From positions 1-39,206 of the forward strand of contig JBBDRM010000056.1 in the NCBI GenBank assembly GCA_040905475.1: a stretch of 39,206 nt of DNA, in the 5' to 3' direction. Made by a program: the position numbers and the translations under genes. Below are positions 9,905-26,042 of this stretch, piece after piece; the stretch's first letter is position 1, and each line of letters begins with the position of its first letter. The stretch comes from Actinomycetota bacterium. Lineage in GTDB: Bacteria > Actinomycetota > AC-67. Below the pieces are notes generated by a model. The model was not told where the DNA came from. It saw nothing but the letters and a program-made list of their open reading frames with translations, and made no database searches.

Positions 9905-10918
9905 TCAACCGGCGTTCCAGGGAAGCGGCGGAGGACTCGGGCCGTCTGGGGGAGAGGGCGGCGCGATCCCCGGACCGATCGCTCCCTCGGCGTCATCGGA
10001 CGGTCGCCGGCGCACGAGCATCATCGCGAACAGGATGCCCGGAGCCGACGCCACCAACGCGGGGAAGAGCAGCGACGACGCGTAACCGCCGACGGCGAGG
10101 TCCCGCGCGAGCGCGAGATTATCGGCCGGCCCGGCCAGCGCACCGGCGCCGGCCGCCGCAGCGGCGAGCCCGATCGTCGCGATGCCGCCCGCGATCAGCC
10201 CGATCGCGACTGAGGCCGCCGAGCGACGCCGGAACGGCCCGTTGCGTAGCTTGGTCGCGAGCCACCACGCGAAGGCGCCGAGCAGAACGGTTCCGAGCAG
10301 AACGCCCGCCGCATACGCGAGGTAATACGCGGGATCCGGCAGCAACGTGATCCGGATCCTCGGCTGTCCGGCGTCGAACGTGCGGATCGTCCATCCCCGT
10401 CCGCTCAGCTCGCAGACGGTCTCGAGCGCATCGAGATCGGATGGTTCCGACGCGCGGATCCTCGTCTCCACGACCGGGGTGCAGATCACAAGCGTCCCGG
10501 CTTCGTAGCCGGTCGTGACGAGCACACGCGCAAGTCCCGCGGCGTCCAGGTCGAGCACCCAGTCGTCGGCCGCGCCGGGCTCGATCAACCGGCCGTCGAT
10601 CTGGACCGTCGAGGTGTCGGGATAGTTATCGTGCTCGTGAGCGATGACGCCCGGGAAGCCGAGCCATGCCGCGACGGCTTCCGCGATGCGGCGCCGGTCC
10701 GACGAGCGGCCGTCCAGGAACACGTCGATGGCATCGTTGCCCGCCGCGTTGATCCAAAGGTCGATCTCGGGCCGACCCGTCGGCTCGGCAGTCTGGCTGA
10801 GCCGATCGCCGGCGTCGAGGGCGAAGAGGCCGGGCAGGCACGCGGGGACGAGCAAAAATACCGCGATCGCCGGAAGCATCCGCAGAGCCCGTCGCCGCGC
10901 GTTCACAACGCTCAGCAT
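9905..10918 (-). CDS. Membrane-anchored protein with extracytoplasmic domain, unknown
   Basis: 337 residues, unrecognised. There is a hydrophobic N-terminal segment (about 13-35, MLPAIAVFLLVPACLPGLF). An extracytoplasmic region of about 160 residues follows with paired cysteines (LVICTP, ETVCELSG). Three further membrane segments lie at about 195-217, 233-262 and 272-298, and the cytoplasmic tail is proline-rich (PPSPPDGPSPPPLP). The ATPAC context could be a lipobox-like signal, but the cysteine sits inside the hydrophobic segment, so a transmembrane anchor is more likely. It converges with the DUF4234-like gene (5 bases between stops) and diverges from the gene at 10961. Confidence 0.65.
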   Translation of the reverse strand: MLSVVNARRRALRMLPAIAVFLLVPACLPGLFALDAGDRLSQTAEPTGRPEIDLWINAAGNDAIDVFLDGRSSDRRRIAEAVAAWLGFPGVIAHEHDNYPDTSTVQIDGRLIEPGAADDWVLDLDAAGLARVLVTTGYEAGTLVICTPVVETRIRASEPSDLDALETVCELSGRGWTIRTFDAGQPRIRITLLPDPAYYLAYAAGVLLGTVLLGAFAWWLATKLRNGPFRRRSAASVAIGLIAGGIATIGLAAAAAGAGALAGPADNLALARDLAVGGYASSLLFPALVASAPGILFAMMLVRRRPSDDAEGAIGPGIAPPSPPDGPSPPPLPWNAG

Positions 10919-14010: not shown

Positions 14011-15009
14011 ATGAGGATTCCGAAGATGAAGCCAACGGGCTGGAAACGCTGGGCCGTACTTTGGGTCGTAGTCCCCGTGCTGACGGCTGCGGTCATGTTG
14101 GGGATCGTGGTCTTCCTCCCGGACGGGTGGGGCATCGACGTGATCTTGATGCTGCCGCCGGCGCTCTTCGCCGCGCTCGTCATCGTCCATCTGTTCTCGA
14201 TGCCGAACGAGTACATGGCCCGATGGATCAAATCCCATAAGGTCGTCGTGGACGACGAGAATCGGGCCGTCATCCGCCGTTATCTGCTGCACGGCAGGAG
14301 GATCCGCACGAGCGGAGCGCTCAGCGGGCTAATCGCCTACGTCATCTACACGTCGGTGTCCTCCAATGATCTGCCGTTCGGCTGGATCGCCGCGACGTTC
14401 GGCGGCTACCTGCTTGGCGCCGCCGCGGCCGAGGTCTGGGCGCTCCGACCGCAGCGCGGATCGGTGCGATCGGCGTCGCTCTCTCCGCGAAGTATCAACG
14501 ACTACGTGCCTCGGCTGGCCGTGCTCTTCGTGCGACTCGTTCCCGTGATGACCGTCGCGGCGCTCGTCATCGCGCCCACCATGACCTATCAGTTCGGCCC
14601 AGGCCCCGAGTTCGGCGGCCCCGACGCGGCGCGCGAATGGGGAGCGCTGATCGGTTGGACGATCGGATCGATCGTGCTCGCGATCCTCGTCGAGGTGACG
14701 GCGCGACGCATCGTTCGTAGGCCGCAACCCATCACGTCTGAGAACCTCGTCGCGGCGGACGATGCCATCCGTTCGACTTCGCTGCATTGTTTGATCGGTG
14801 CAGGCCTGGCGATGATGTTGGGGATACTCTCACGGAACCTCGGAGACATCCTGAACGAGAGCGCGTACGGCTCCGATCAGCTTCGGGCCGTGTTCTCGAG
14901 CGTCATGCTCATCAGCGGCGTCTTCGTTCCGTTCGTGTGGCTACGGCTCGGGGTCGATCAGCCCTGGGTTGTTCGTCGCAGCCGTCCTCGAGAGCCGGTG
15001 GCCGCGTGA
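14011..15009 (+). CDS. Multi-pass membrane protein, operon partner of GntR
   Basis: 332 residues with about eight to nine hydrophobic segments. Two lie at the N-terminus (about 12-32 and 41-62), two near 95-135, two at 165-185 and 205-230, and two at 260-280 and 295-315. No transporter signature was recognised, and no ATP-binding subunit is adjacent. The ATG at 14011 follows GGGGG with 8-base spacing; a GTG at 14002 is possible and would add three residues. The stop overlaps the GntR start (GTGA), so the regulator is translated with it. YtrA-type regulators commonly control their own membrane-protein partners; a role in envelope stress or export is plausible but not shown. Confidence 0.7.
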   Translation: MRIPKMKPTGWKRWAVLWVVVPVLTAAVMLGIVVFLPDGWGIDVILMLPPALFAALVIVHLFSMPNEYMARWIKSHKVVVDDENRAVIRRYLLHGRRIRTSGALSGLIAYVIYTSVSSNDLPFGWIAATFGGYLLGAAAAEVWALRPQRGSVRSASLSPRSINDYVPRLAVLFVRLVPVMTVAALVIAPTMTYQFGPGPEFGGPDAAREWGALIGWTIGSIVLAILVEVTARRIVRRPQPITSENLVAADDAIRSTSLHCLIGAGLAMMLGILSRNLGDILNESAYGSDQLRAVFSSVMLISGVFVPFVWLRLGVDQPWVVRRSRPREPVAA

Positions 15010-15401
15010 TCCTGAGCGTCGACCCCGACTTGCCGGTCCCGCCTTACGAGCAGATCCGCTCCCAGATCTCGAGCATGGTGGCGAGCGGCGTCCTCCCGAG
15101 CGGAACGCGGTTGCCGCCGATCCGCCAGCTCGCCGACGACCTCGGTCTCGCCGGAGGCACCGTTGCCCGGGCCTATCACGAGCTCGAAGATTCCGGCGTG
15201 CTTGTGACGCGCGGGCGGCACGGCTCCTTCGTCGACGGATCTACGCCTAAGAGCTCGTCGAAGGAGTCGCTCGGGCTTCTCGACCAAGCGGCGCACGCGT
15301 TCGCCGTGCGCGCCAGTCAGCTGGGATACGACGTGCGCGATGCCCTCGGCGCAGCAGAACGTGCGCTCAAGGAGCTCCCGCCGGCCCGTCACACGGCCTG
15401 A
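15006..15401 (+). CDS. GntR-family transcriptional regulator, YtrA type
   Basis: 131 residues. The N-terminal GntR winged helix spans about residues 8-78 (PPYEQIRSQISSMVASG, then LPPIRQLADDLGL and GTVARAYHELEDSGVLVTRGRHGSFV). After it there is only a short helical region of about 50 residues instead of a large effector domain, which defines the YtrA subgroup. Those regulators dimerise through the short helical tail. The GTG start overlaps the stop of the membrane protein gene. The probable target is the palindrome at 13967-13986 in front of the operon. No ligand can be inferred. Confidence 0.85.
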   Translation: MILSVDPDLPVPPYEQIRSQISSMVASGVLPSGTRLPPIRQLADDLGLAGGTVARAYHELEDSGVLVTRGRHGSFVDGSTPKSSSKESLGLLDQAAHAFAVRASQLGYDVRDALGAAERALKELPPARHTA

Positions 15402-15417
15402 CCTGCGTCGATGCAGG

Positions 15418-15446
15418 TTGACACTGCCTACCGGCGCTGGCAGAAT
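15418..15446 (+). promoter_or_regulatory. ilv leader promoter, TTGACA-17-CAGAAT
   Basis: TTGACA at 15418-15423, a 17-base spacer, and CAGAAT at 15441-15446. The leader peptide ATG begins 9 bases after the -10 hexamer, so the transcript would start at or within a few bases of the start codon. The same boxes, the same spacer and the same GGCAGAATCGC context occur in front of the leuA leader at 24319. Confidence 0.85.
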
Positions 15447-15455
15447 CGCGCCACT

Positions 15456-15503
15456 ATGCTTTCTAGGGAGGCCTTTTCGGCGAGCGTCCTCGTAGTTATC
15501 TGA
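15456..15503 (+). CDS. ilv operon leader peptide (MLSREAFSASVLVVI)
   Basis: A 15-residue reading frame directly after a consensus promoter. It ends in the codons for Ser-Val-Leu-Val-Val-Ile, so five of the last five residues are branched-chain amino acids, the products of the pathway downstream. It is followed by a GC-rich hairpin and an intrinsic terminator. This is the standard layout of a ribosome-mediated attenuation leader: stalling at Val/Leu/Ile codons under starvation would favour readthrough into the structural genes. The start has no ribosome site and would be read from a near-leaderless transcript. Confidence 0.85.
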   Translation: MLSREAFSASVLVVI

Positions 15504-15504
15504 C

Positions 15505-15533
15505 CACGCGCGGCCCCGCGGGGCATGCGCGTG
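15505..15533 (+). promoter_or_regulatory. ilv leader hairpin upstream of terminator
   Basis: CACGCGC (15505-15511) pairs perfectly with GCGCGTG (15527-15533), and the inner GCCCC/GGGGC arms extend the stem. It begins 1 base after the leader stop codon. In an attenuator this would be the pause or protector hairpin that a stalled ribosome leaves intact or alters. No clear antiterminator pairing was worked out. Confidence 0.65.
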
Positions 15534-15535
15534 AA

Positions 15536-15560
15536 CCTCTCGGCCGCCGAGGGGTTTTTT
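15536..15560 (+). terminator. ilv attenuator terminator
   Basis: CCTCTCGG (15536-15543) pairs with CCGAGGGG (15547-15554) around a three-base loop, with one G-U pair, and is followed at once by six T (15555-15560). It is an intrinsic terminator placed between the leader peptide and the first structural gene. Confidence 0.85.
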
Positions 15561-15607
15561 GTTAGGTCGATCCTTTCACCCGCCGAGGGTGAAATGTGGA
15601 GGTTGTG

Positions 15608-16204
15608 ATGGGCAGGACGGCACTGGTGATCGTGGACATGCAGAACGACATGGCGCACGCCGACGGCCGGGCACCCATCATCGACGCCGTCCATAAAGCC
15701 CCGGTGATGAACGCGATCCTCGACGCGTTTCGGGAAGCGAAAGAGCCGGTTATCCATGTCGTGCGCTCCTACCGGGCCGACACCTGGGACGTCGAGCGCT
15801 TCCGCGTCCCGTTCTTCCAGAACGACCGCGGCTTCCTGGTCGAGCGCACCTGGGGTGCACAGATCATCGACCGCCTGGTTCCCGAGCCCGGCGAGCCCGT
15901 CGTGGTGAAGCAGCGCTTCAGCGGCTTCGCGTTCACCGAGCTCGACCTTCTGCTCCGCCGCGCCGGGGTCACCAAGATCGTCGTCGTCGGCGTCAACCTG
16001 CCGAACTGCCCGCGCACCACGATGTACGACGCGGTCGGGCTCGACTACGACGTCGTCGCGGTGGCCGATGCGCTCGCAACCACTAGTGACGAGACGCATC
16101 GCATCAACCTGCAGGACCTCAGCGCCATCGGCGTGCGGATCGCGACCGCGGACGAGGTCATCCGCGAGATCGCACGCGCGTCGGACCGGATCTCGAACAA
16201 CTAA
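15608..16204 (+). CDS. Isochorismatase-family cysteine hydrolase
   Basis: 198 residues. The family triad is visible: Asp10 (VIVDMQNDM), Lys101 ([10 protein letters not shown]) and Cys134 ([15 protein letters not shown]). Members hydrolyse amides or vinyl ethers, for example nicotinamidase, N-carbamoylsarcosine amidase or isochorismatase; the substrate here is not deducible. The ATG at 15608 has GGAGG 5 bases upstream; an in-frame GTG at 15596 would place the ribosome site inside the gene. It lies between the ilv attenuator and ilvB, with 17 bases to ilvB, and would thus be expressed with the ilv genes. It has no known role in branched-chain amino acid synthesis. Confidence 0.88.
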
Positions 16205-16221
16205 TCCAGGGGAGTGGTGTC

Positions 16222-17976
16222 GTGAAGATCACCGGAGCACAGGCAATGGTCCGCTCGCTCGAGCAGGAGGGCGTCGAGGTGATCTTCGGCATCCCGGGCG
16301 GCGCCATCCTGCCCGCGTACGATCCGATCCTCGACTCGCCGATCCGCCACATCCTGTGTCGGCACGAGCAGGGTGCCGCGCACGCCGCCGACGGATACGC
16401 GCAGGCGACCGGCGAGCCCGGCGTCTGCATGGCGACCTCGGGGCCCGGTGTGACGAACCTCGTCACCGGCCTCGCGAGCGCCTACATGGACTCGATCCCG
16501 ATGGTGGCGATCTCGGGTCAGGTCCCGACGTGGGCGGTCGGTGGCGACGCGTTCCAGGAGTGCGACGCGACCGGGATCACGATGCCGGTCACCAAGCACA
16601 ACTTCCTGGTGATGGACGCGCAAGAGATTCCCAAGACCATCGCGGAGGCGTTCCATATCGCGCGAACCGGTCGGCCGGGCCCGGTTCTGGTCGACATCCC
16701 CAAGGACGTCCTCCAAGCGGAGATGGCGTGGTGGTACCCGGAAGAGGTCGACCTCCCCGGATACCGGCCCGTCACCAAGGGCAACCCCAAGCAGATCCGC
16801 GAGGCGGCCAAGCTGATCCTGTCCGCTCGGCAGCCGATCCTCTATACGGGCGGCGGGATCATCCGCGCCGGGGCGGCCGACGAGCTTCGCCGGCTTGTCG
16901 AGCTCACCGGCATACCGACCGTGACGACGCTGATGGGCCGCGGCGGGATCCCCGACGACCACGAGCTGTGTCTCGGCATGCCGGGCATGCACGGCAACTA
17001 CACGGCGGTCACGGCGATGCAGAAGGCCGACCTGCTGGTGTCGCTCGGCGTGCGCTTCGACGACCGCGTCACCGGCAAGCTCGCCACGTTCGCGCCCGAC
17101 GCCAAGATCATCCACGCCGACATCGACCCGGCCGAGATCGGCAAGAACAGAGCGGTCGATGTGCCGATCGTCGGCGACGCGCGCTCGGTCATCCACGAGC
17201 TCAACGAGATCCTCGAGGCCATGATCGAGGAGCGCGGCCTCCCCGACTACTCGGCGTGGGTCAAGACGGTCCAGGGCTGGCAGAAGAAGTACCCCTACAA
17301 GTACTCGCAGACCGCCGACGGTCCGCTCAAGCCCGAGTACGTGATCGAGCAGATCGGCAAGATCACCAAGGGCGACGGGGTCTACGTCGCCGGCGTCGGC
17401 CAGCATCAGATGTGGGCGTCGCAGTATCTGCGCTTCAAGCGCCCGAACACGTGGCTGAACTCCGGTGGGCTCGGCACGATGGGGTACGCGGTGCCCGCCG
17501 CGATGGGTGCCAAGGTCGGACGTCCCGACGAGCAGGTCTGGGCCATCGACGGCGACGGCTGCTTCCAGATGACCTGCCAGGAGCTCGCGACGATGACGAC
17601 CGAGAACATCCCCGTCAAGATCGCGATCATCAACAACGCGTTCCTCGGTATGGTGCGGCAGTGGCAGGAGCTGTTCTACGACAACCGCTTCTCGGCGGTT
17701 GAGTTCGGCTACGACGTGCCCGACTACGTGAAGCTCGCCGAGGCCTACGGCGCGATCGGGCTGCGCTGTGAGACGCCGGAGGAGGTCGAGTCGACCATAC
17801 GCAAGGCGGCCGAGATCGACGACCGGACCGTCGTCATGGACTTCCGCGTCGACCCGACGGAGAAGTGCTACCCGATGGTGCCGGCCGGTGCGTCGAACGA
17901 CGAGATCATCCTCGGGCCGGAATTCGAGAAGGACCACGCCGACATCCTCCACGACACCCCGGAGGCGATCATCTGA
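16222..17976 (+). CDS. ilvB: Acetolactate synthase large (catalytic) subunit
   Basis: The ThDP- and FAD-dependent enzyme that condenses pyruvate with pyruvate or 2-ketobutyrate, the first shared step of Val/Leu/Ile synthesis. The ThDP glutamate is Glu49 ([15 protein letters not shown]). The Mg/ThDP motif runs from GDG at 444-446 to the NN at about 471-472. The family-typical GIPGGAILP at the N-terminus and [16 protein letters not shown] near the C-terminus are present. The 584-residue length is normal. The GTG start follows GGGGAG at 16209-16214. The stop shares one base with the ilvN start. Confidence 0.97.
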
Positions 17977-18500
17977 TGGCCAAACACACGCTGTCCGTCC
18001 TGGTGGAGAACAAGCCGGGCGTGCTCGCCCGCATATCGGGGTTGTTCGCCCGCCGTGGCTTCAACATCGAGTCGCTGGCGGTCGGCCCGACCGAGATCCC
18101 CGACGTCTCGCGTATGACGATCGTGGTCAACGTCGAGACCAAGCCGCTCGAGCAGGTCGTGAAGCAGCTCAACAAGCTGGTGCCGGTGCTCAAGATCGTC
18201 GAGCTCGACAAGGATCAGTCGGTCGAGCGCGAGCTGCTGCTGATCAAGGTGAAGGCGAGTCCCGAGACCCGAGCGCAGATCGTCGAGATCGCCGACATCT
18301 TCCGTTCGAAGATCGTCGACGTCGCACCCGGCGCGCTCACGATCGAGGCGACGGGTTCACCCGACAAGCTCCTGGCCATGACCGACATGCTGCGTCCCTA
18401 CGGCGTGCGCGAGTTCGTGCGTACCGGGCTCGTCGCATTGGCGCGCGGCGACCGGGGGATCGCGGACAAGGCGCTCCGCCTGGCGGAGAAGGGGGCGTAA
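17976..18500 (+). CDS. ilvN: Acetolactate synthase small (regulatory) subunit
   Basis: 174 residues. The N-terminal ACT domain is clear ([37 protein letters not shown]); this is where valine binds to inhibit the enzyme. The second half matches the C-terminal ALS small-subunit domain ([28 protein letters not shown]). It activates the IlvB catalytic subunit and makes it feedback sensitive. The ATG overlaps the ilvB stop; a longer frame exists upstream but lies inside ilvB. Four bases separate it from ilvC. Confidence 0.97.
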
Positions 18501-18504
18501 CCGG

Positions 18505-19500
18505 ATGGCGAACATCTTCTACGACGACGACGCGGATCTCTCTGTTCTGGACGGCCGCAAGGTCGCGATCATCGGCTACGGGTCGCAGGGACACGCGCAC
18601 GCGTTGAACCTTCAAGACTCCGGCGTCGACGTCCGGGTCGGGCTCTATGAGGGCTCGAAGTCGTGGGCAAAATGCGAAGCCGAAGGGTTGCGCGTCCTGC
18701 CGGTCGCCGAGGCGGCCAAGGAAGCGAACCTCATCATGATGCTGCTGCCCGACACCGTTCAGAAGAAGGTCTACGACGAGTCGGTCAAGCCGAACCTCAA
18801 GAAGGGCAAGGCGCTGTTCTTCGCACACGGCTTCAACATCCACTTCAAGCAGATAAAGCCGTCGAAGACCGTCGACGTCGCGATGGTCGCGCCGAAGGGG
18901 CCGGGCCATCTCGTGCGCCGGACCTTCACCGAGAAGATCGGCACGCCGGCGCTGCTCGCCGTCCATCAAGACGCCACCGGCAACGCGCACGCGATCGCGA
19001 AGGCCTACGCGAAAGGGATCGGCGCGACGCGCGCCGGGCTGATCGAGACGACGTTCCAGGAAGAGACCGAGACCGATCTGTTCGGCGAGCAGGTCGTGCT
19101 CTGCGGCGGGACGTCGGAGCTCGTTCACGCAGGCTTCGAGACGCTGGTCGCGGCCGGGTATCAGCCCGAGGTCGCCTACTTCGAGTGCCTCCACGAGCTG
19201 AAGCTGATCGTGGACCTGCTCTACGAGGGTGGGTTCAAGTACATGCGGTACTCGATCTCCGACACCGCCGAATACGGTGACTACTCCCGCGGTAAGCGCA
19301 TCGTCAACGAGCGGACGCGCAAGGAGATGCAGAAGATCCTGAAGGAGATCACTTCGGGCCGGTTCGCGCGCGAATGGATCAAGGAGAACGCCGAAGGCGC
19401 GACCAACTTCAACGCGATGCGCAAGGAGCAGGCGGATCACCAGATCGAACAGGTGGGGGAGAAGCTCCGCGCGATGATGCCCTGGATCGAAAAGAAGTAA
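18505..19500 (+). CDS. ilvC: Ketol-acid reductoisomerase (class I)
   Basis: Isomerises and reduces acetolactate or acetohydroxybutyrate, the second step of branched-chain synthesis. The 331 residues fit the short class I form. The Rossmann motif [13 protein letters not shown] is at residues 30-42. The cofactor loop reads [10 protein letters not shown]; the two serines usually contact the NADP phosphate, while the position often held by Arg is Tyr. Metal-binding acidic residues lie in [16 protein letters not shown] and [12 protein letters not shown]. It is the last gene of the hydrolase-ilvBNC unit; no terminator was found before the convergent CsbD-like gene 6 bases later. Confidence 0.97.
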
Positions 19501-19506
19501 GCCGGG

Positions 19507-20031
19507 TCAGTCCTCCTTCTCGACCTCCTGCTTGACGTTCTCGAGCGCTGCGGCCGCTTCCCGGCGACCGCGCGCCGTCGCCCTGCGCGCGCCGGCGCGC
19601 TCCTGCGCCTGCTTCTGAGCGCCCACGGCCTGCCTTTCCTTGCGGTCGGCCGCGTGCTGCCGGCTCGTGGCGTGCTTCACGACCGCCTGCTTTCGCTTCT
19701 GCCCGCGCTCCTGCGCGGCGGTCTTCCGTTTGGCCGCTGCTCGCTCGACCGCTTCCTCGCGGATCTCTTCCTCCGCTCGCACTTTGGCGCGTTCCTGCTC
19801 GAGCTCCTGCTGGGTCTCGAAGAACCGCTCGGTCGCGGCGTCGCGAAGTTCGTCGGCTCGGACCTTCCGCTCGGCCGCCTCCACGTGCTTGTCGGCGGCG
19901 ACCTCGTGGAGCTCGCCCGAGGCGATCAGACCCTCGCTACCCGTCGCGGCTCCGGCGACCTTCTTCGTCTTGCCCTTGATGCGCTCCCACAGACCTCTGC
20001 GGACTTCTTTCGTCGGTTCGATCGGCGTCAT
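19507..20031 (-). CDS. CsbD-like domain protein with long charged helix
   Basis: 174 residues. Residues 15-50 match the CsbD-like stress protein pattern (WERIKGKTKKVAG, then a G-E-G-L-x-x-x-G-E core at 31-40). Residues 50-170 are almost entirely Ala, Glu, Arg, Lys and Gln, and would form one long charged helix or coiled coil. CsbD-family proteins are small general-stress proteins of unknown mechanism. The start has a strong GAGGAGGAA on the minus strand. It is the second gene of a two-gene unit, 18 bases after its paralog, and converges on ilvC. Confidence 0.7.
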   Translation of the reverse strand: MTPIEPTKEVRRGLWERIKGKTKKVAGAATGSEGLIASGELHEVAADKHVEAAERKVRADELRDAATERFFETQQELEQERAKVRAEEEIREEAVERAAAKRKTAAQERGQKRKQAVVKHATSRQHAADRKERQAVGAQKQAQERAGARRATARGRREAAAALENVKQEVEKED

Positions 20032-20049
20032 GTATTCCTCCTCGATCTC

Positions 20050-20658
20050 TTACTTAGCGCCACGCGCGGCTTCGATCGCCTCGGCTTCGAGGCGGGCTTG
20101 CTCGGCGGCGGCTTCCTCTTCGGCGGCCGCATCGAGTACGAGCGCGGCTTCGATCCGAGAGACGGAATCGGTTGCATCGATCACGAGCTCTTCCTTTGCG
20201 GCTTCGAACTCGACCGCGCGGGCCGCCCTCTCTGCCTCGCCCGCGATCCGCTGCTGGTCCTGTTCGGTCTCGCGGGCGATGGCCGCAGTGCGTCGCGCCT
20301 TCTTGCGCGCAGCTTCGGCGCGCTCTTCCTTGACCTCGGCGATCTGAGCGCCGGTTTTCTCCGCGGCCTTACGCTCGATGGCATCGGCCGCCGCTTCCTC
20401 CGCTACGGCGCTCATGCGCTCGGCCGCCTGGGTCCGCTCGATCTGGCCCGTCGTGATCAGGCGTTCGTCGCCGAGGAGGAAGCCTGCGAGGGCTTTCGCG
20501 CGTCCGGTCAGGTCCTCCACGAATGCGCGGCGAGACTGACCGACGACGCCGCGGTCGTTCACCATGTCGCGGAGCTGTCGAGCCACAGTGAACGGTGCGC
20601 GCATCAAGCGGAGTGGGATCACCGCGATCTGGCGTGAACGGTCGAGGATGCTTGCCAT
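20050..20658 (-). CDS. CsbD-related charged helical protein (paralog of neighbour)
   Basis: 202 residues. Residues 51-72 align with the CsbD-like core of the next gene: 9 of 22 positions are identical, including the G, AG, G, E, LI and G positions. It is followed by about 120 residues of Ala/Glu/Arg/Lys-rich helix. The first 45 residues (MASILDRSRQIAVIPLRLMRAP) are different and amphipathic, perhaps for membrane association. The ATG at 20658 is preceded by GGGAGGG; a longer frame to 20754 lacks such a site. It is probably the first gene of a stress-induced pair. The 203 bases between it and the aminotransferase gene must carry divergent promoters, but only the aminotransferase -10 is convincing. 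Confidence 0.65.
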   Translation of the reverse strand: MASILDRSRQIAVIPLRLMRAPFTVARQLRDMVNDRGVVGQSRRAFVEDLTGRAKALAGFLLGDERLITTGQIERTQAAERMSAVAEEAAADAIERKAAEKTGAQIAEVKEERAEAARKKARRTAAIARETEQDQQRIAGEAERAARAVEFEAAKEELVIDATDSVSRIEAALVLDAAAEEEAAAEQARLEAEAIEAARGAK

Positions 20659-20810
20659 GTCTAGCCCTCCCGGAGCATGTGAAAACTTCATCACAGACGG
20701 ATATTGAGTACCTTCCCTTGTGCGAGGGGTGGAAACGTCGCCGCTCGGCCGCACACCGGCCGACCGGGCCGGCTCACTCGATATCGCGAGGACGTGACGT
20801 CGTGAACGCC

Positions 20811-20816
20811 TAGAAT
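20811..20816 (+). promoter_or_regulatory. Candidate -10 element TAGAAT for the aminotransferase-serA unit
   Basis: TAGAAT lies 45 bases upstream of the GTG at 20862, leaving a leader with GGAAGCGAGG as ribosome site. No good -35 box is seen. Confidence 0.45.
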
Positions 20817-20861
20817 GGCATCGAGCGAACCGACCGGACTTCCCGGAAGCGAGGCAATGAC

Positions 20862-22010
20862 GTGCGGAAACCCGAGATACTCATGACCCCCGGCCCGACC
20901 CCGGTCCCGGCCGAGGTCCTGCTTGCCCAGGGCAGCCCGATCGTCTACCACCGCGGGCCGGGCTACGCGGCGGTCCTGCGTGAGTGCACCGAGGGGCTCC
21001 AGTGGCTCATGAACACCTCGAACGACGTACTCACCTACACGGCCAGCGGCTCCGGCGGCATGGAGTCTGCGGTCGTGAACCTGTTCAGCCCGGGCGACCG
21101 TGTCCTCGTCGTGTCGGTAGGCAACTTCGGCGAGCGGTTCGTCAAGATCGCCACCGCCTACGGCCTGGACGTGAAGCTCCTCGAGTACGACTGGGGCAAA
21201 GTCGCTCAGGCTGCCGATGTCGCCGCCGCACTCGAGCCGGGCATCAAAGGCGTGCTCATCCAGCACTCCGAGACCTCGACCGGCGTGGTCAACGACATCG
21301 AGGCGATCGGCGCCGTGGTCAAGGATCACCCGGCGCTGTTGGTGGTCGACACGATCTCGGGACTCGGCGCGACGCCGCTCATGGTCGACGAGTGGGGCAT
21401 CGACGTCGCGGTCGGCGGAGTGCAGAAGGGTCTCATGATGTCTCCCGGGATCGCGTTCGTGAGCGTCAGCGACGCCGCGTGGAAGGCGAACGAGACCGCC
21501 AAGTGCCCGCGGTTCTATCTCGACTGGGGCCCGGTCCGCGACGCCTACAACCGCAAGGAGCCGGAGAACCCGTATACGCCTGCCGTGTCGCTGTACCTCG
21601 GTCTGCGTGAGGCGGTCCGCCTGCTGCGCGAGGAGGGCATCGACAACGTCTTCGCGCGCCACCGCCGCAATTCACGCGCCGTGAAGGAAGCGGTGAAGGC
21701 GCTCGGGCTCGATCTGGTCGGTGAGGCCCTCGATCGCGCGGTGTGCGTGACGGCGATCCGCGCGCCCGAGGGGATCGACGGCGACGAGCTGACCGCGCTG
21801 GTGCGGTCGCGGTTCGGGATCGTGTTCGCGCCGGGCCAGGGGAAGTGGAAGGGCAAGGTGTTCCGCATCGGGCACCTCGGCTACATCGACGCAGGCGACG
21901 TGCTGCAGGCGATGGCCGCGCTCGAGTCATGCCTGAGCGAGATGGGATACCCCGCGAAGCCGGGCGCCGCGGTCGCGGCGGCCGAAGAGGTCTACGCGCA
22001 GAAAGGCTGA
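20862..22010 (+). CDS. Class V PLP aminotransferase (serine-glyoxylate/phosphoserine type)
   Basis: 382 residues, fold type I, class V. It shows LMTPGPTPVPAEVL at the N-terminus, SGSGGMES for phosphate binding, HSETSTGVVNDI, VVDTISGLGATPL and the PLP lysine Lys189 in GGVQKGLM. Close relatives are alanine/serine-glyoxylate and purine-catabolic aminotransferases. Because it heads a unit that includes serA, and no serC is visible, the likely role is transamination of 3-phosphohydroxypyruvate to phosphoserine, as reported for class V enzymes standing in for SerC. That role is inferred from context. The GTG is chosen because the family starts at MRKP; an ATG 5 bases upstream is out of frame. Confidence 0.88.
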   Translation: MRKPEILMTPGPTPVPAEVLLAQGSPIVYHRGPGYAAVLRECTEGLQWLMNTSNDVLTYTASGSGGMESAVVNLFSPGDRVLVVSVGNFGERFVKIATAYGLDVKLLEYDWGKVAQAADVAAALEPGIKGVLIQHSETSTGVVNDIEAIGAVVKDHPALLVVDTISGLGATPLMVDEWGIDVAVGGVQKGLMMSPGIAFVSVSDAAWKANETAKCPRFYLDWGPVRDAYNRKEPENPYTPAVSLYLGLREAVRLLREEGIDNVFARHRRNSRAVKEAVKALGLDLVGEALDRAVCVTAIRAPEGIDGDELTALVRSRFGIVFAPGQGKWKGKVFRIGHLGYIDAGDVLQAMAALESCLSEMGYPAKPGAAVAAAEEVYAQKG

Positions 22011-22016
22011 TGCCGT

Positions 22017-22544
22017 ATGACCGTCGTCGCTCCCGAGCGGGTCGTTGCGAGTGGTGGTCCCCCGAAGAGGCGCTCGCTGTTGTTGGCGGTCGCCCTTCTG
22101 GTGGGCGTGATCTTCGGCGCGGGGATCGTGGGGCTGGCAATGCGAGGCGTGCTGCCGAACGCACCCTGGCAACGGATCGCTTCGTGGCCCGAGCTTCAGC
22201 GTGAGGAGATCCTGACCGTCGACGGCTCGGGCGTGATCCTTGTGCTCGACGGCGATGAACCTGTTGCGCTTTCCTCTCTGGATGGGCGCGGCCAGCCCGT
22301 AACCTACTGCGAGACCTCCGGGTGGTTCGACGACCTGAACCACGGTTCGAAGTTCGATCGTCTCGGCCACTACGCGCTAGGTCCGGCTCCGCGTGGACTC
22401 GATCGGTTCGCCGTGGCGGTGGTAGGCGACGACGTCTTCGTTGACACGACACAGGTCATCCCGGGCCCGCCGCGTTTCGAGCCGCGTGCCGAGGAGCGGA
22501 CAGGGCCGTTCTGCGGTGAGATCTTGCGAGAGAGCCACGGATGA
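22017..22544 (+). CDS. Degenerate Rieske-like membrane-anchored protein
   Basis: 175 residues. One membrane helix at about 20-41 is followed by an extracytoplasmic beta-rich domain. Residues 98-128 resemble the cluster-binding end of a Rieske domain: HGSKFD at 109-114 and GPAPRGL at 122-128 are the classic pattern. The ligands are broken, however. The first box has Cys98 but no CxH, and the second has only His109, with no cysteine three residues before it. It probably keeps the Rieske fold without the 2Fe-2S cluster. It sits 6 bases after the aminotransferase and its stop overlaps the serA start. A link to serine synthesis is not evident. The Rieske relation is a motif-level judgement. Confidence 0.65.
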   Translation: MTVVAPERVVASGGPPKRRSLLLAVALLVGVIFGAGIVGLAMRGVLPNAPWQRIASWPELQREEILTVDGSGVILVLDGDEPVALSSLDGRGQPVTYCETSGWFDDLNHGSKFDRLGHYALGPAPRGLDRFAVAVVGDDVFVDTTQVIPGPPRFEPRAEERTGPFCGEILRESHG

Positions 22545-24112
22545 AGGTGCTCGTCACCGAGCCGATCGCTGAGGCGGGGATCGAGTCCCTCCGGGCCGAG
22601 GCGACCGTCGACCTCCGGACCGATCTCACGCGCGCGCAGCTGCTCGAGATCATCGGCGATTACGACGCGCTCATCGTGCGCTCGCAAACGGTCGCCGACG
22701 CCGAGCTGATCGAGAAAGGCCGCAACCTCAAGGTGATCGGCCGGGCGGGGATCGGGCTCGACAACGTCGACGTCGACGCGGCCACGCGGCACGGGATCGT
22801 CGTCGTCAACGCACCGACCTCGAACGTCCTGTCCGCCGCCGAGCACGCGATGGCGCTGATGCTCTCGCAGGCGCGGAACATCCCGGCGGCGAATGCGTCG
22901 GTCAAGAGCGGGAAGTGGGAGCGTGGCAAGTTCGAGGGCGTCGAGCTGCACGGCAAGACGCTGGCCATCCTCGGGCTCGGGCGCATCGGGACGCTCGTGG
23001 CGCAGCGCGCGCTGGCGTTCGGGATGCGGGTCGTCGCCTACGACCCCTACGTCGCGAAGCAGCGCGCCGGGCAGATGGGCGTCGAGCTGGCAGATCTCGA
23101 CGAGGCCTTGCGCGTCGCCGACTTCGTCACGATCCACCTGCCGAAGACGACCGAGACCTCGGCGTTGATCGGCGCGCGGGAGCTCGGGCTGATGAAGCCC
23201 GGAGCGCGGCTGGTGAACACCTCGCGCGGCGGGATCGTGGACGAGGACGCGCTGGCCGCCGCGGTCGCCGACGGGCGGCTGGGCGGGGGAGCGCTGGACG
23301 TTTTCGCCCAAGAACCGCCGGACGCGGGATCGCCCTTGTTCGGCCTCGACACCGTGGTGCTGACGCCGCATCTCGGCGCCTCGACCGAGGAAGCGCAGGA
23401 GAAGGCCGGCGCCGCGATCGCCGAGCAGGTGGGCCTGGCGCTGCGCGGCGAGCTGGCCCCGTACGCGGTGAACGTCGACGCCGGCCGCGAGCTGTCCGAT
23501 GTGGTACGGGCGTTCCTGCCGCTCGCGGAGAAGCTCGGCCGCATCCTCACCGCGCTGTCCGGCGGCCACGCGCACGAAGTGCGGTTCTCGTACCAGGGGC
23601 AGATCGCCGATCACGACACCCGCGTTCTGACGCTCGCCGGGCTGAAGGGGATGTTCGCCGCGATCATGCACGAGCCGGTGACCTTCGTGAACGCGCCGCT
23701 GATGGCGAAGGAACGTGGGATCGAGTACGGCGAGATGAAGAGTGCGATGTCCCGCGACTACGTCAACCTGATCGAGGTGTCGGCCGGCGATGGGATCGCC
23801 GTCGCCGGGACGCTGGTCGGCGTGCGGAACGAGGAGCGGCTCGTGCGGATCTTCGACTTCGAGGTGGACTTCCCGCCGGGCCCGAACATGTGCTTCCTGC
23901 GCTACGACGACCGGCCGGGCGTGATCGGAGCGATCGGCACGATCCTCGGGCGAACGGGTGTGAACATCGCGGACATGCGCGTGGGCCGCCAGGAGAAAGG
24001 CGGCGAGGCGTTGATGTGCATCACGGTCGATCAGCCGATCGAGCCGGATGTGCTGAAGGAGCTCGTCGAAGGCTCGGAAGCCAAGGACGCGAAGGTCGTC
24101 ACGCTGGGTTAG
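22541..24112 (+). CDS. serA: D-3-phosphoglycerate dehydrogenase
   Basis: Oxidises 3-phosphoglycerate with NAD, the first step of serine synthesis. The 523 residues fit the long actinobacterial type. The catalytic/NAD domain carries GLGRIG near residue 146, the substrate arginine in NTSRGGIVDEDAL, and the active-site histidine in LTPHLGAST. An intervening ASB domain spans about 320-450, and a C-terminal ACT domain starting at CFLRYDDRPGVIG probably senses serine. The ATG overlaps the stop of the Rieske-like gene. No attenuator or serine-specific leader precedes this unit. Confidence 0.97.
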   Translation: MKVLVTEPIAEAGIESLRAEATVDLRTDLTRAQLLEIIGDYDALIVRSQTVADAELIEKGRNLKVIGRAGIGLDNVDVDAATRHGIVVVNAPTSNVLSAAEHAMALMLSQARNIPAANASVKSGKWERGKFEGVELHGKTLAILGLGRIGTLVAQRALAFGMRVVAYDPYVAKQRAGQMGVELADLDEALRVADFVTIHLPKTTETSALIGARELGLMKPGARLVNTSRGGIVDEDALAAAVADGRLGGGALDVFAQEPPDAGSPLFGLDTVVLTPHLGASTEEAQEKAGAAIAEQVGLALRGELAPYAVNVDAGRELSDVVRAFLPLAEKLGRILTALSGGHAHEVRFSYQGQIADHDTRVLTLAGLKGMFAAIMHEPVTFVNAPLMAKERGIEYGEMKSAMSRDYVNLIEVSAGDGIAVAGTLVGVRNEERLVRIFDFEVDFPPGPNMCFLRYDDRPGVIGAIGTILGRTGVNIADMRVGRQEKGGEALMCITVDQPIEPDVLKELVEGSEAKDAKVVTLG

Positions 24113-24306
24113 GCATCACTGCCCTGGATGCGTTCAATGTTCTCGGTAAGGCTGAGTTTGCGACCGAGGGCTCGGCCGGGTTCGAAGGGCGCATCCTCGA
24201 TCTCCAGCAGCGGCGCGCCGAGCGATGCCCAATCCGGATCGTCAACGGTCTTTATCTGACCGCGATCCTGCCCGCCATGCCCGGCAGCCCGTGCCCATGA
24301 TGCCAC
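24109..24306 (-). CDS. Possible small protein, unrecognised
   Basis: An open frame of 65 residues from a GTG at 24306, or 67 from a TTG at 24312. The product looks like a soluble protein (VDDPDWASLGAPLLEI, FEPGRALGRKLSLTENIERI) and shows no homology I can name. Its stop overlaps the serA stop from the opposite strand. It lacks a clear ribosome site, and its upstream region coincides with the leuA leader promoter. It could be a real small gene, the remnant of a larger one, or chance. If not coding, this 200-base stretch holds nothing else recognised. Confidence 0.3.
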   Translation of the reverse strand: MASWARAAGHGGQDRGQIKTVDDPDWASLGAPLLEIEDAPFEPGRALGRKLSLTENIERIQGSDA

Positions 24307-24318
24307 CGGCAAAACTCG

Positions 24319-24347
24319 TTGACACCCATCACGGCTCCTGGCAGAAT
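24319..24347 (+). promoter_or_regulatory. leuA leader promoter, TTGACA-17-CAGAAT
   Basis: TTGACA at 24319-24324, a 17-base spacer and CAGAAT at 24342-24347, identical in both boxes and spacing to the ilv leader promoter at 15418. The leader ATG again follows 9 bases after the -10. Confidence 0.85.
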
Positions 24348-24356
24348 CGCCGAACC

Positions 24357-24401
24357 ATGACGTCCACGAGGATCCATCGGTCGGCGCTGCTCCTGCTTTG
24401 A
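24357..24401 (+). CDS. leuA leader peptide (MTSTRIHRSALLLL)
   Basis: A 14-residue frame ending in four consecutive leucine codons (CTG CTC CTG CTT) directly before the stop. It lies between a consensus promoter and a hairpin-terminator pair upstream of leuA. This is the expected sensor of leucyl-tRNA charging in ribosome-mediated attenuation. As with the ilv leader, the start codon has no ribosome site and would sit at the very 5' end of the transcript. Confidence 0.87.
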   Translation: MTSTRIHRSALLLL

Positions 24402-24403
24402 CG

Positions 24404-24429
24404 GCGCGCTCGCCTTTCGGCGTGCGCGC
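24404..24429 (+). promoter_or_regulatory. leuA leader hairpin upstream of terminator
   Basis: GCGCGCTCGCC (24404-24414) pairs with GGCGTGCGCGC (24419-24429) around a TTTC loop, with a single T-T mismatch. It starts 2 bases after the leader stop, the same position as the GC-rich hairpin of the ilv leader. Confidence 0.7.
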
Positions 24430-24431
24430 TA

Positions 24432-24455
24432 CCCCTCGGATACGGGGGGTTTTTT
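24432..24455 (+). terminator. leuA attenuator terminator
   Basis: CCCCTCG (24432-24438) pairs with CGGGGGG (24443-24449) around a GATA loop, with one G-U pair, followed by six T (24450-24455). It is an intrinsic terminator 45 bases upstream of the leuA start. Confidence 0.85.
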
Positions 24456-24500
24456 GTTGGTCCGGATAGGCTAGGCAGAATCCAAAGGGAGGCGTTGAAA

Positions 24501-26042
24501 GTGACGGACAACCGCGTTCGGATCTTCGACACGACGCTACGGGACGGCGAGCAGTCGCCGGGGATCAATCTCAACGTCAAGGAGAAGCTCGAGATCGCGG
24601 AGCAGCTAGCCCGCCTCGGCGTCGACATCATCGAGGCCGGTTTCCCCGTCACGTCGCCCGGGGACTTCGAGTCGGTATCGGCGATCGCCCAGACCGTCAA
24701 GGGCCCGGGCATCGCAGCCCTCGCTCGCGCGCACGACCAGGACATAGATCGAGCCTGGGAGGCCGTCCAGCACGCGCGGCAGCCGCGGATCCACGTCTTC
24801 CTGTCGACCTCCGACATCCACCGCAAGTACATGCTCAACGCGACCGAGGACGAGATCCTCGCCCAGGCGGTCGCCGGCGTCGAGCGTGCGAAAGGCTACT
24901 GCGAAGACGTCGAGTTCTCGCCGCAGGACGCGACGCGAACCGAGCCCGAGTTCTTGTTCAAGATCGTCGACGCGGCGGTCGCGGCCGGCGCGACCACGAT
25001 CAACATCCCCGACACGGTCGGCTACGCGATCCCGTACGACTTCGGCGAGCTGATCCGCGAGTGCTACAAGGCGGTGCCGCGCCTCGCCGATGTGATCGTG
25101 TCGGTGCACTGCCACAACGACCTCGGGCTCGCGGTATCGAACTCGATCGAAGCCGTCCGCGCCGGCGCCCGGCAGGTCGAGGTCGCCATCAACGGCATCG
25201 GCGAGCGGGCCGGGAACTGCTCGCTGGAGGAAGTCGTGATGGCGATCAAGATGCGCCACGACCTGCTCGGGGTCGAGACCGGCGTCAACACGAAGGAGCT
25301 CGCGCGCTCGTCGCGGCTCGTCACGCTGCTGACCGGCTACCAGGTCCAGCGGAACAAAGCGATCGTGGGGGAGAACGCTTTCTCACACGAGTCGGGGATC
25401 CACCAGCACGGCGTGATCCAGGACCGGCTGACCTACGAGATCATCAAAGCCGAGGACATCGGGGTCGAGGGCGGCAAGATCGTGCTCGGGAAGCACTCGG
25501 GACGGCATGCGTTCTCGAAGACGCTCGAGGAGATGGGCTTCCAGCTCGGCAAGGAAGAACTGAATCGCGCCTTCGCGCGGTTCAAGGAGCTGGTGGATCG
25601 CAAGATCCAGATCTCCGACAAGGACCTCGAGGCGATCGTCGCGGACGAGATCCAGACCGTCGAGGAGGTCTACCGCCTGGAAGCCCTACAGGTCACCGGC
25701 GGCACCCACCTCTCGCCGACGGCGACCGTGAAGATCGTGAAGAACGGCGAATCCATCCAGGAGTCCGCGATGGGCGACGGGATGGTAGACGCGGCTTTCG
25801 GCGCGATCATGCGCGCCACGAGCGTCGATGCCAAGCTCTGGTCGTTCAACGTCGCGGCGGTCACCGAAGGCTCCGAAGCACTCGGCGACGTGACCGTTCA
25901 GATCGAGGTCGAGGGCGAGCGCTTCACCGGCCGAGGCATCTCGACGGACATCGTGGAGGCGAGCGCGCGCGCTTTCCTCAACGCGCTGAACCGGGCCGCG
26001 CGACGCGGTCACTCGCCTAGATCGGCGCAGCCGACGCCTTAG
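24501..26042 (+). CDS. leuA: 2-isopropylmalate synthase
   Basis: Condenses acetyl-CoA with 2-ketoisovalerate, the committed step to leucine. The 513 residues show the DRE-TIM barrel: FDTTLRDGEQSPG with the catalytic Arg14-Asp15, the metal ligands in VHCHNDLGLAVSNS, and NGIGERAGNCSLEEVV. HESGIHQHGV and LGKHSGRHAF in the communication region follow, then a C-terminal regulatory domain from about residue 390 that binds leucine. The leucine-codon leader upstream supports leuA rather than citramalate synthase. The GTG at 24501 is chosen because GGGAGG (24487-24492) is 8 bases before it; the TTG at 24495 is too close. The stop overlaps the convergent GNAT-like gene by 4 bases. Confidence 0.96.
   Translation: MTDNRVRIFDTTLRDGEQSPGINLNVKEKLEIAEQLARLGVDIIEAGFPVTSPGDFESVSAIAQTVKGPGIAALARAHDQDIDRAWEAVQHARQPRIHVFLSTSDIHRKYMLNATEDEILAQAVAGVERAKGYCEDVEFSPQDATRTEPEFLFKIVDAAVAAGATTINIPDTVGYAIPYDFGELIRECYKAVPRLADVIVSVHCHNDLGLAVSNSIEAVRAGARQVEVAINGIGERAGNCSLEEVVMAIKMRHDLLGVETGVNTKELARSSRLVTLLTGYQVQRNKAIVGENAFSHESGIHQHGVIQDRLTYEIIKAEDIGVEGGKIVLGKHSGRHAFSKTLEEMGFQLGKEELNRAFARFKELVDRKIQISDKDLEAIVADEIQTVEEVYRLEALQVTGGTHLSPTATVKIVKNGESIQESAMGDGMVDAAFGAIMRATSVDAKLWSFNVAAVTEGSEALGDVTVQIEVEGERFTGRGISTDIVEASARAFLNALNRAARRGHSPRSAQPTP

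Follow-up and report, generated by a model that had tools for sequence, protein, structure and literature searches.

Two leader regions in the window, by which we mean the whole stretch of 39,206 nucleotides analysed here, are very probably ribosome-mediated transcription attenuators on near-leaderless messages. One (leader and terminator, 15418-15560) is found ahead of the ilv operon (ilvB, ilvC), the other (24319-24455) ahead of leuA. Each consists of a short ORF rich in codons of its pathway and an intrinsic terminator placed before the first gene, and the C-terminal codons of the two encoded peptides, MLSREAFSASVLVVI and MTSTRIHRSALLLL, specify the amino acids of their own pathways. The first-pass annotation had read both sites as attenuators lacking a Shine-Dalgarno sequence, and this reading was borne out in that the parts fit together and the layout is kept in related genomes.

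The ilv promoter (15418-15446, + strand, as are the other leader parts and the genes of both sites) begins 16 bases past the stop codon of an upstream GntR-like ORF (14787-15401), and comprises TTGACA (15418-15423), a 17-base spacer and CAGAAT (15441-15446), with a TG at 15438-15439 before the -10. The leader ATG (15456) follows 9 bases past the -10 without a Shine-Dalgarno sequence and opens the 15-codon peptide MLSREAFSASVLVVI (15456-15503, TGA at 15501-15503). Hairpin A (15505-15533) begins one base past the stop codon and is followed by the intrinsic terminator (15534-15560), with its stem starting at 15534 and a T6 tract at 15555-15560; this geometry is the same in the orthologues. The leu leader repeats the arrangement, with a promoter at 24319-24347 (TTGACA 24319-24324, spacer of 17, CAGAAT 24342-24347, TG before the -10), an ATG at 24357 that is again 9 bases past the -10 and again without a Shine-Dalgarno sequence, the 14-codon peptide MTSTRIHRSALLLL (24357-24401, TGA at 24399-24401), a hairpin A (24403-24430) beginning one base past the stop codon, and a terminator region (24431-24455) made up of the terminator at 24431-24450 and T6 at 24450-24455. 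The common promoter proposed earlier, TTGACA-N17-CAGAAT-N9-ATG, could thus be read directly at both sites, as could the six-T tracts. The earlier description had placed a hairpin 1-2 bases past the stop; a hairpin does start one base past it, but the terminator is a separate second hairpin, which hairpin A directly abuts with no linker between them. Folding z-scores of the two leaders were about -2.5 each.

The string GGCAGAATCGC occurs exactly twice in the window, and in a scanned 9.9-kb stretch (14700-24600) the only promoter-like sites were those of ilv and leu, each carrying a TG ahead of its -10, and no terminators with a clean T6 tail were found apart from those of the two leaders. TTGACA-N15..19-CAGAAT had two matches in the whole 4.24-Mb genome, both at the ilv and leu leaders, against none for the reversed control and a chance expectation of about 0.3 as estimated from base composition. 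Rfam leader families gave no match above the gathering score, RF02837 (anti-hemB) reaching 24.2 bits where its gathering score is 49.5.

Downstream of the ilv leader, the operon is headed by an isochorismatase/amidohydrolase-like gene (15608-16204; GGAGG before the ATG at 15608, with the ORF called from 15596). This gene separates the leader from ilvB, and in two relatives (L003 and L149) the ilv leader is likewise followed by a similar ORF start. The acetolactate synthase large subunit gene ilvB (16222-17976; NF005860 above cut-off) and the ketol-acid reductoisomerase gene ilvC (18505-19500) follow. The 2-isopropylmalate synthase gene leuA lies at 24495-26042, with NF002086 and TIGR00973 both above cut-off.

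We propose that RNA polymerase would begin some 0-3 bases ahead of the leader AUG. The message would then open almost at its start codon, and a ribosome would load on this 5' end without a Shine-Dalgarno site and translate the leader. When charged Leu, Val or Ile tRNA is plentiful, the ribosome would pass the control codons that close the leader and depart, allowing the stop-codon hairpin and the adjoining terminator to fold and transcription to stop. When charged tRNA is scarce, the ribosome would stall at the control codons and mask the 5' arm of hairpin A, and polymerase would presumably continue past the terminator into leuA or the ilv operon. The layout itself, in its parts, geometry and conservation, is observed, and within this lineage the ilv, leu and aroF leaders all share it.

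The switch is the weak point of this mechanism for ilv and leu, since the terminator formed in the folding model at every ribosome position tested (probability 0.93-1.00), and neither constrained folding nor a duplex search for an antiterminator yielded a partner for the terminator 5' arm that beat shuffled sequences. A further candidate, pairing between an early leader-ORF GAGG and the terminator's CCUC arm, was rejected: it could be seen in three of five leaders and, where tested, did not outperform shuffles. When transcripts were cut ahead of the terminator 3' arm, the 5' arm was captured somewhat more when hairpin A was masked, an effect that is weak and partly trivial. Tentatively, the folding suggests that hairpin A keeps the terminator 5' arm free in the terminating state. 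Older work in S. coelicolor, where regulation of ilvB was unaltered by changes to the control codons, counts against an attenuator mechanism.

We then examined gene starts across the genome. A looser pattern (TTGACN, 16-18 bases, NANNNT, 6-10 bases, ATG) gave 38 matches, compared with 9 for the same pattern read backwards, and most of these led into long ORFs. In addition, TANNNT was found 6, 7, 8 and 9 bases before 13, 17, 13 and 7 candidate gene starts, respectively, the baseline being 3.4 (sd 1.9). This count covered about 450 kb of the organism's own genome, including a 400-kb sample. Taken together, these counts indicate that near-leaderless starts are ordinary in this genome. The leader gaps of 9 or 10 fall at the far edge of the TANNNT enrichment peak (6-9), and the position of the -10 in the ilv and leu leaders would place the transcription start within about 5 bases of the ATG. 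A start about 7 bases past the -10 would leave only two or three bases untranslated ahead of the ATG. All five ilv and leu leaders of the family have a purine at base -3, which could be the transcription start.

In the search for His and Trp leaders in this genome, neither hisD nor trpE proved to have a pathway-rich short ORF upstream. Read by eye, the starts of these genes are TAGAAT-N9-GTG (hisD) and TAGACT-N9-ATG (trpE), and the hisD upstream stretch GGCTAGAATCGGCGGACCGTG resembles the leu promoter. Other short ORFs lying 6-10 bases past promoter-like sites in the genome, MFRPSASQIVGCVGA and MLAPIIC, have no obvious pathway.

The first-pass annotation had suggested that its composite pattern might uncover leaders of other amino acid operons. 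The strict CAGAAT form occurred at no other operon in the genome, but the looser pattern did yield a third leader, MQRYYWFFGTSGRPGAEAV, which is one of the 38 matches and lies on contig C139 as TTGACA-N18-TACCAT-N9-ATG upstream of a DAHP synthase gene (aroF, identified from a sequence motif and from relatives rather than by a family scan). Two same-family genomes also have similar aroF leaders, as do genomes from two further families, with N9 in nearly all; an aromatic leader peptide upstream of aroF thus recurs in three families. The control codons of the aroF leaders read YYWFF (MQRYYWFFGTSGRPGAEAV), YFWFY, YFWFF and similar. A segment of the aro leader ORF can pair with the terminator 5' arm at -17 to -22 kcal/mol in five of six leaders, and in three leaders this outperforms at least 97% of shuffles; in most aro leaders the folding model had the 5' arm captured when the ribosome sat on the aromatic codons. 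As modelled, most aro leaders carry a clear antiterminator, in keeping with classical attenuation logic.

Leaders in related genomes helped to separate what is conserved from what is not. Two same-family ilv leaders, MGFKDRTGLLVVVT (TTGACA, N17, CAGACT, N10) and MKTRTFARGTVVVFV (TTGACA, N17, CAGACT, N9), and a same-family leuA leader, MSQNLLLT (TTGACG, N17, CATACT, N9), illustrate that relatives keep a spacer of 17-18 and a gap of 9-10, while the -10 varies (CAGAAT, CAGACT, CATACT, TACCAT). The pattern had been expected to recur in relatives, which holds for its geometry but not for CAGAAT, since the strict form was present in none of the four same-family genomes; among 60 relatives it matched in four distant ones. 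Judged from these sequences, the conserved feature is the geometry and not the CAGAAT hexamer. Control codons match the pathway in every leader, namely VLVVI, LLVVV and VVVFV for ilv, and LLLL and LLL for leuA. In distant Actinobacteria, leaders occur in the same order of stop codon, hairpin and terminator, some with other starts, and the full order of promoter, ATG, stop, hairpin and terminator is common to several genera. The L003 relative has no leuA leader; its leuA comes directly after serA with a gap of about 50 bases (9950-10001), and the ilv leader there may therefore control both.

The similarity of the ilv and leu leaders had earlier been attributed to either duplication or constraint on one design, and of these two, duplication gains some support from our comparisons. 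In alignments scored against shuffles, ilv-leu pairs had z-scores of 7.5-12, at the level of ilv-ilv pairs (8.4-8.8) and above those of ilv or leu with aro (0.8-4.8). In a tree, the two G003 leaders paired at 92% support and the two G000 leaders grouped together at 66%. Similarity at the level of orthologues, combined with clustering by genome, makes a shared origin or concerted evolution plausible. Duplication or sequence exchange, and not functional constraint only, may lie behind the resemblance, although we would put this somewhat below an even chance; it is compatible with the attenuator reading. The comparison involves five sequences of about 140 bases that are dominated by promoter and hairpin constraints, the ilv and leu peptides do not align outside the control codons, and clustering by genome would require two independent duplications or gene conversion. 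A common origin, perhaps with concerted evolution, is thus plausible, but five short, constrained sequences cannot settle the question. We consider it unlikely that the ilv and leu leaders of this lineage are copies of one sensor module that co-evolve within each genome and switch without a classical antiterminator, with hairpin A abutting the terminator and its occupancy by the ribosome serving as the signal.

Transcription could also start further upstream, in which case the leader peptides would be translated by coupling or from an in-frame start ahead of them. There is an in-frame ATG upstream of the ilv leader (MQVDTAYRRWQNRATMLSREAF...), and in-frame starts also precede the leu leader. 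However, the scan of 14700-24600 turned up no promoter-like site besides those of ilv and leu, the upstream gene leaves only 16 bases before the ilv promoter, and the distance of 9-10 bases is maintained in relatives; we therefore regard an upstream start as improbable. Still less credible is a reading of the hairpins as plain intergenic terminators and of the short ORFs as chance occurrences, for although any genome contains plenty of short ORFs and terminators, all leaders found carry pathway-matched codons, stand directly before the matching genes, and show the same order of promoter, ATG, stop, hairpin and terminator in several genera.

Near-leaderless attenuation thus remains our preferred reading of both sites, and what is new here is its occurrence in an uncultured actinobacterial family, with one geometry across three pathways. 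The sites also provide a search rule for leaders missed by gene callers (promoter, 9-10 bases, ATG, pathway codons, stop, hairpin, terminator), and if the similarity within genomes holds up, they would offer a small example of regulatory leaders in concerted evolution. The design had been called distinctive, a description we do not retain, since the same promoter geometry is common in this genome and leaderless leader peptides have been published for Corynebacterium, Streptomyces and mycobacteria, so that the kind is already known. In the leaderless poly-Cys attenuators reportedly found in mycobacteria, the sensor ORF is at the very 5' end of the transcript, as it would be here, the amino acid there being cysteine.

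The transcript of C. glutamicum ilvBNC has no ribosome binding site for its leader and starts a single base ahead of the leader ATG (Morbach 2000; PMC11857589), and resembles the ilv leader described here in having a near-leaderless leader of branched-chain codons before ilvB, followed by hairpins and a terminator (PMC11857589). In C. glutamicum, antiterminator and terminator have a GCC triplet in common, whereas here hairpin A adjoins the terminator without sharing bases with it, and a clear antiterminator was not found. The ilvB1 attenuator of M. tuberculosis likewise combines a BCAA-rich upstream ORF (LVVI) with an intrinsic terminator; in that case both a terminator and an antiterminator fold have been shown, and codon replacement abolishes induction (PMC13236596). 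The aroF leader is comparable to aroR of C. glutamicum, an aromatic leader peptide (Phe-Tyr-Phe) before the DAHP synthase gene aroF (Neshat 2014), but reads YYWFF and belongs to an unrelated lineage. In S. lividans, ilvBHC, leuA, leuS and other leaders are reported to be transcribed leaderless, with hairpins, and the leuA leader there is without a typical terminator (PMC8079986), unlike the leuA leader here with its T6. The LEU element also has a Leu-codon leader ORF before leuA, and a pseudoknot has been proposed for it close to the ribosome binding site of leuA (PMC1262725); that arrangement, which has no terminator and involves pairing with the leuA Shine-Dalgarno sequence, does not describe the leuA leader of the window, where a T6 terminator is present. 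The main difference from the known cases is a terminator-type attenuator at leuA, where many Actinobacteria carry the LEU element.
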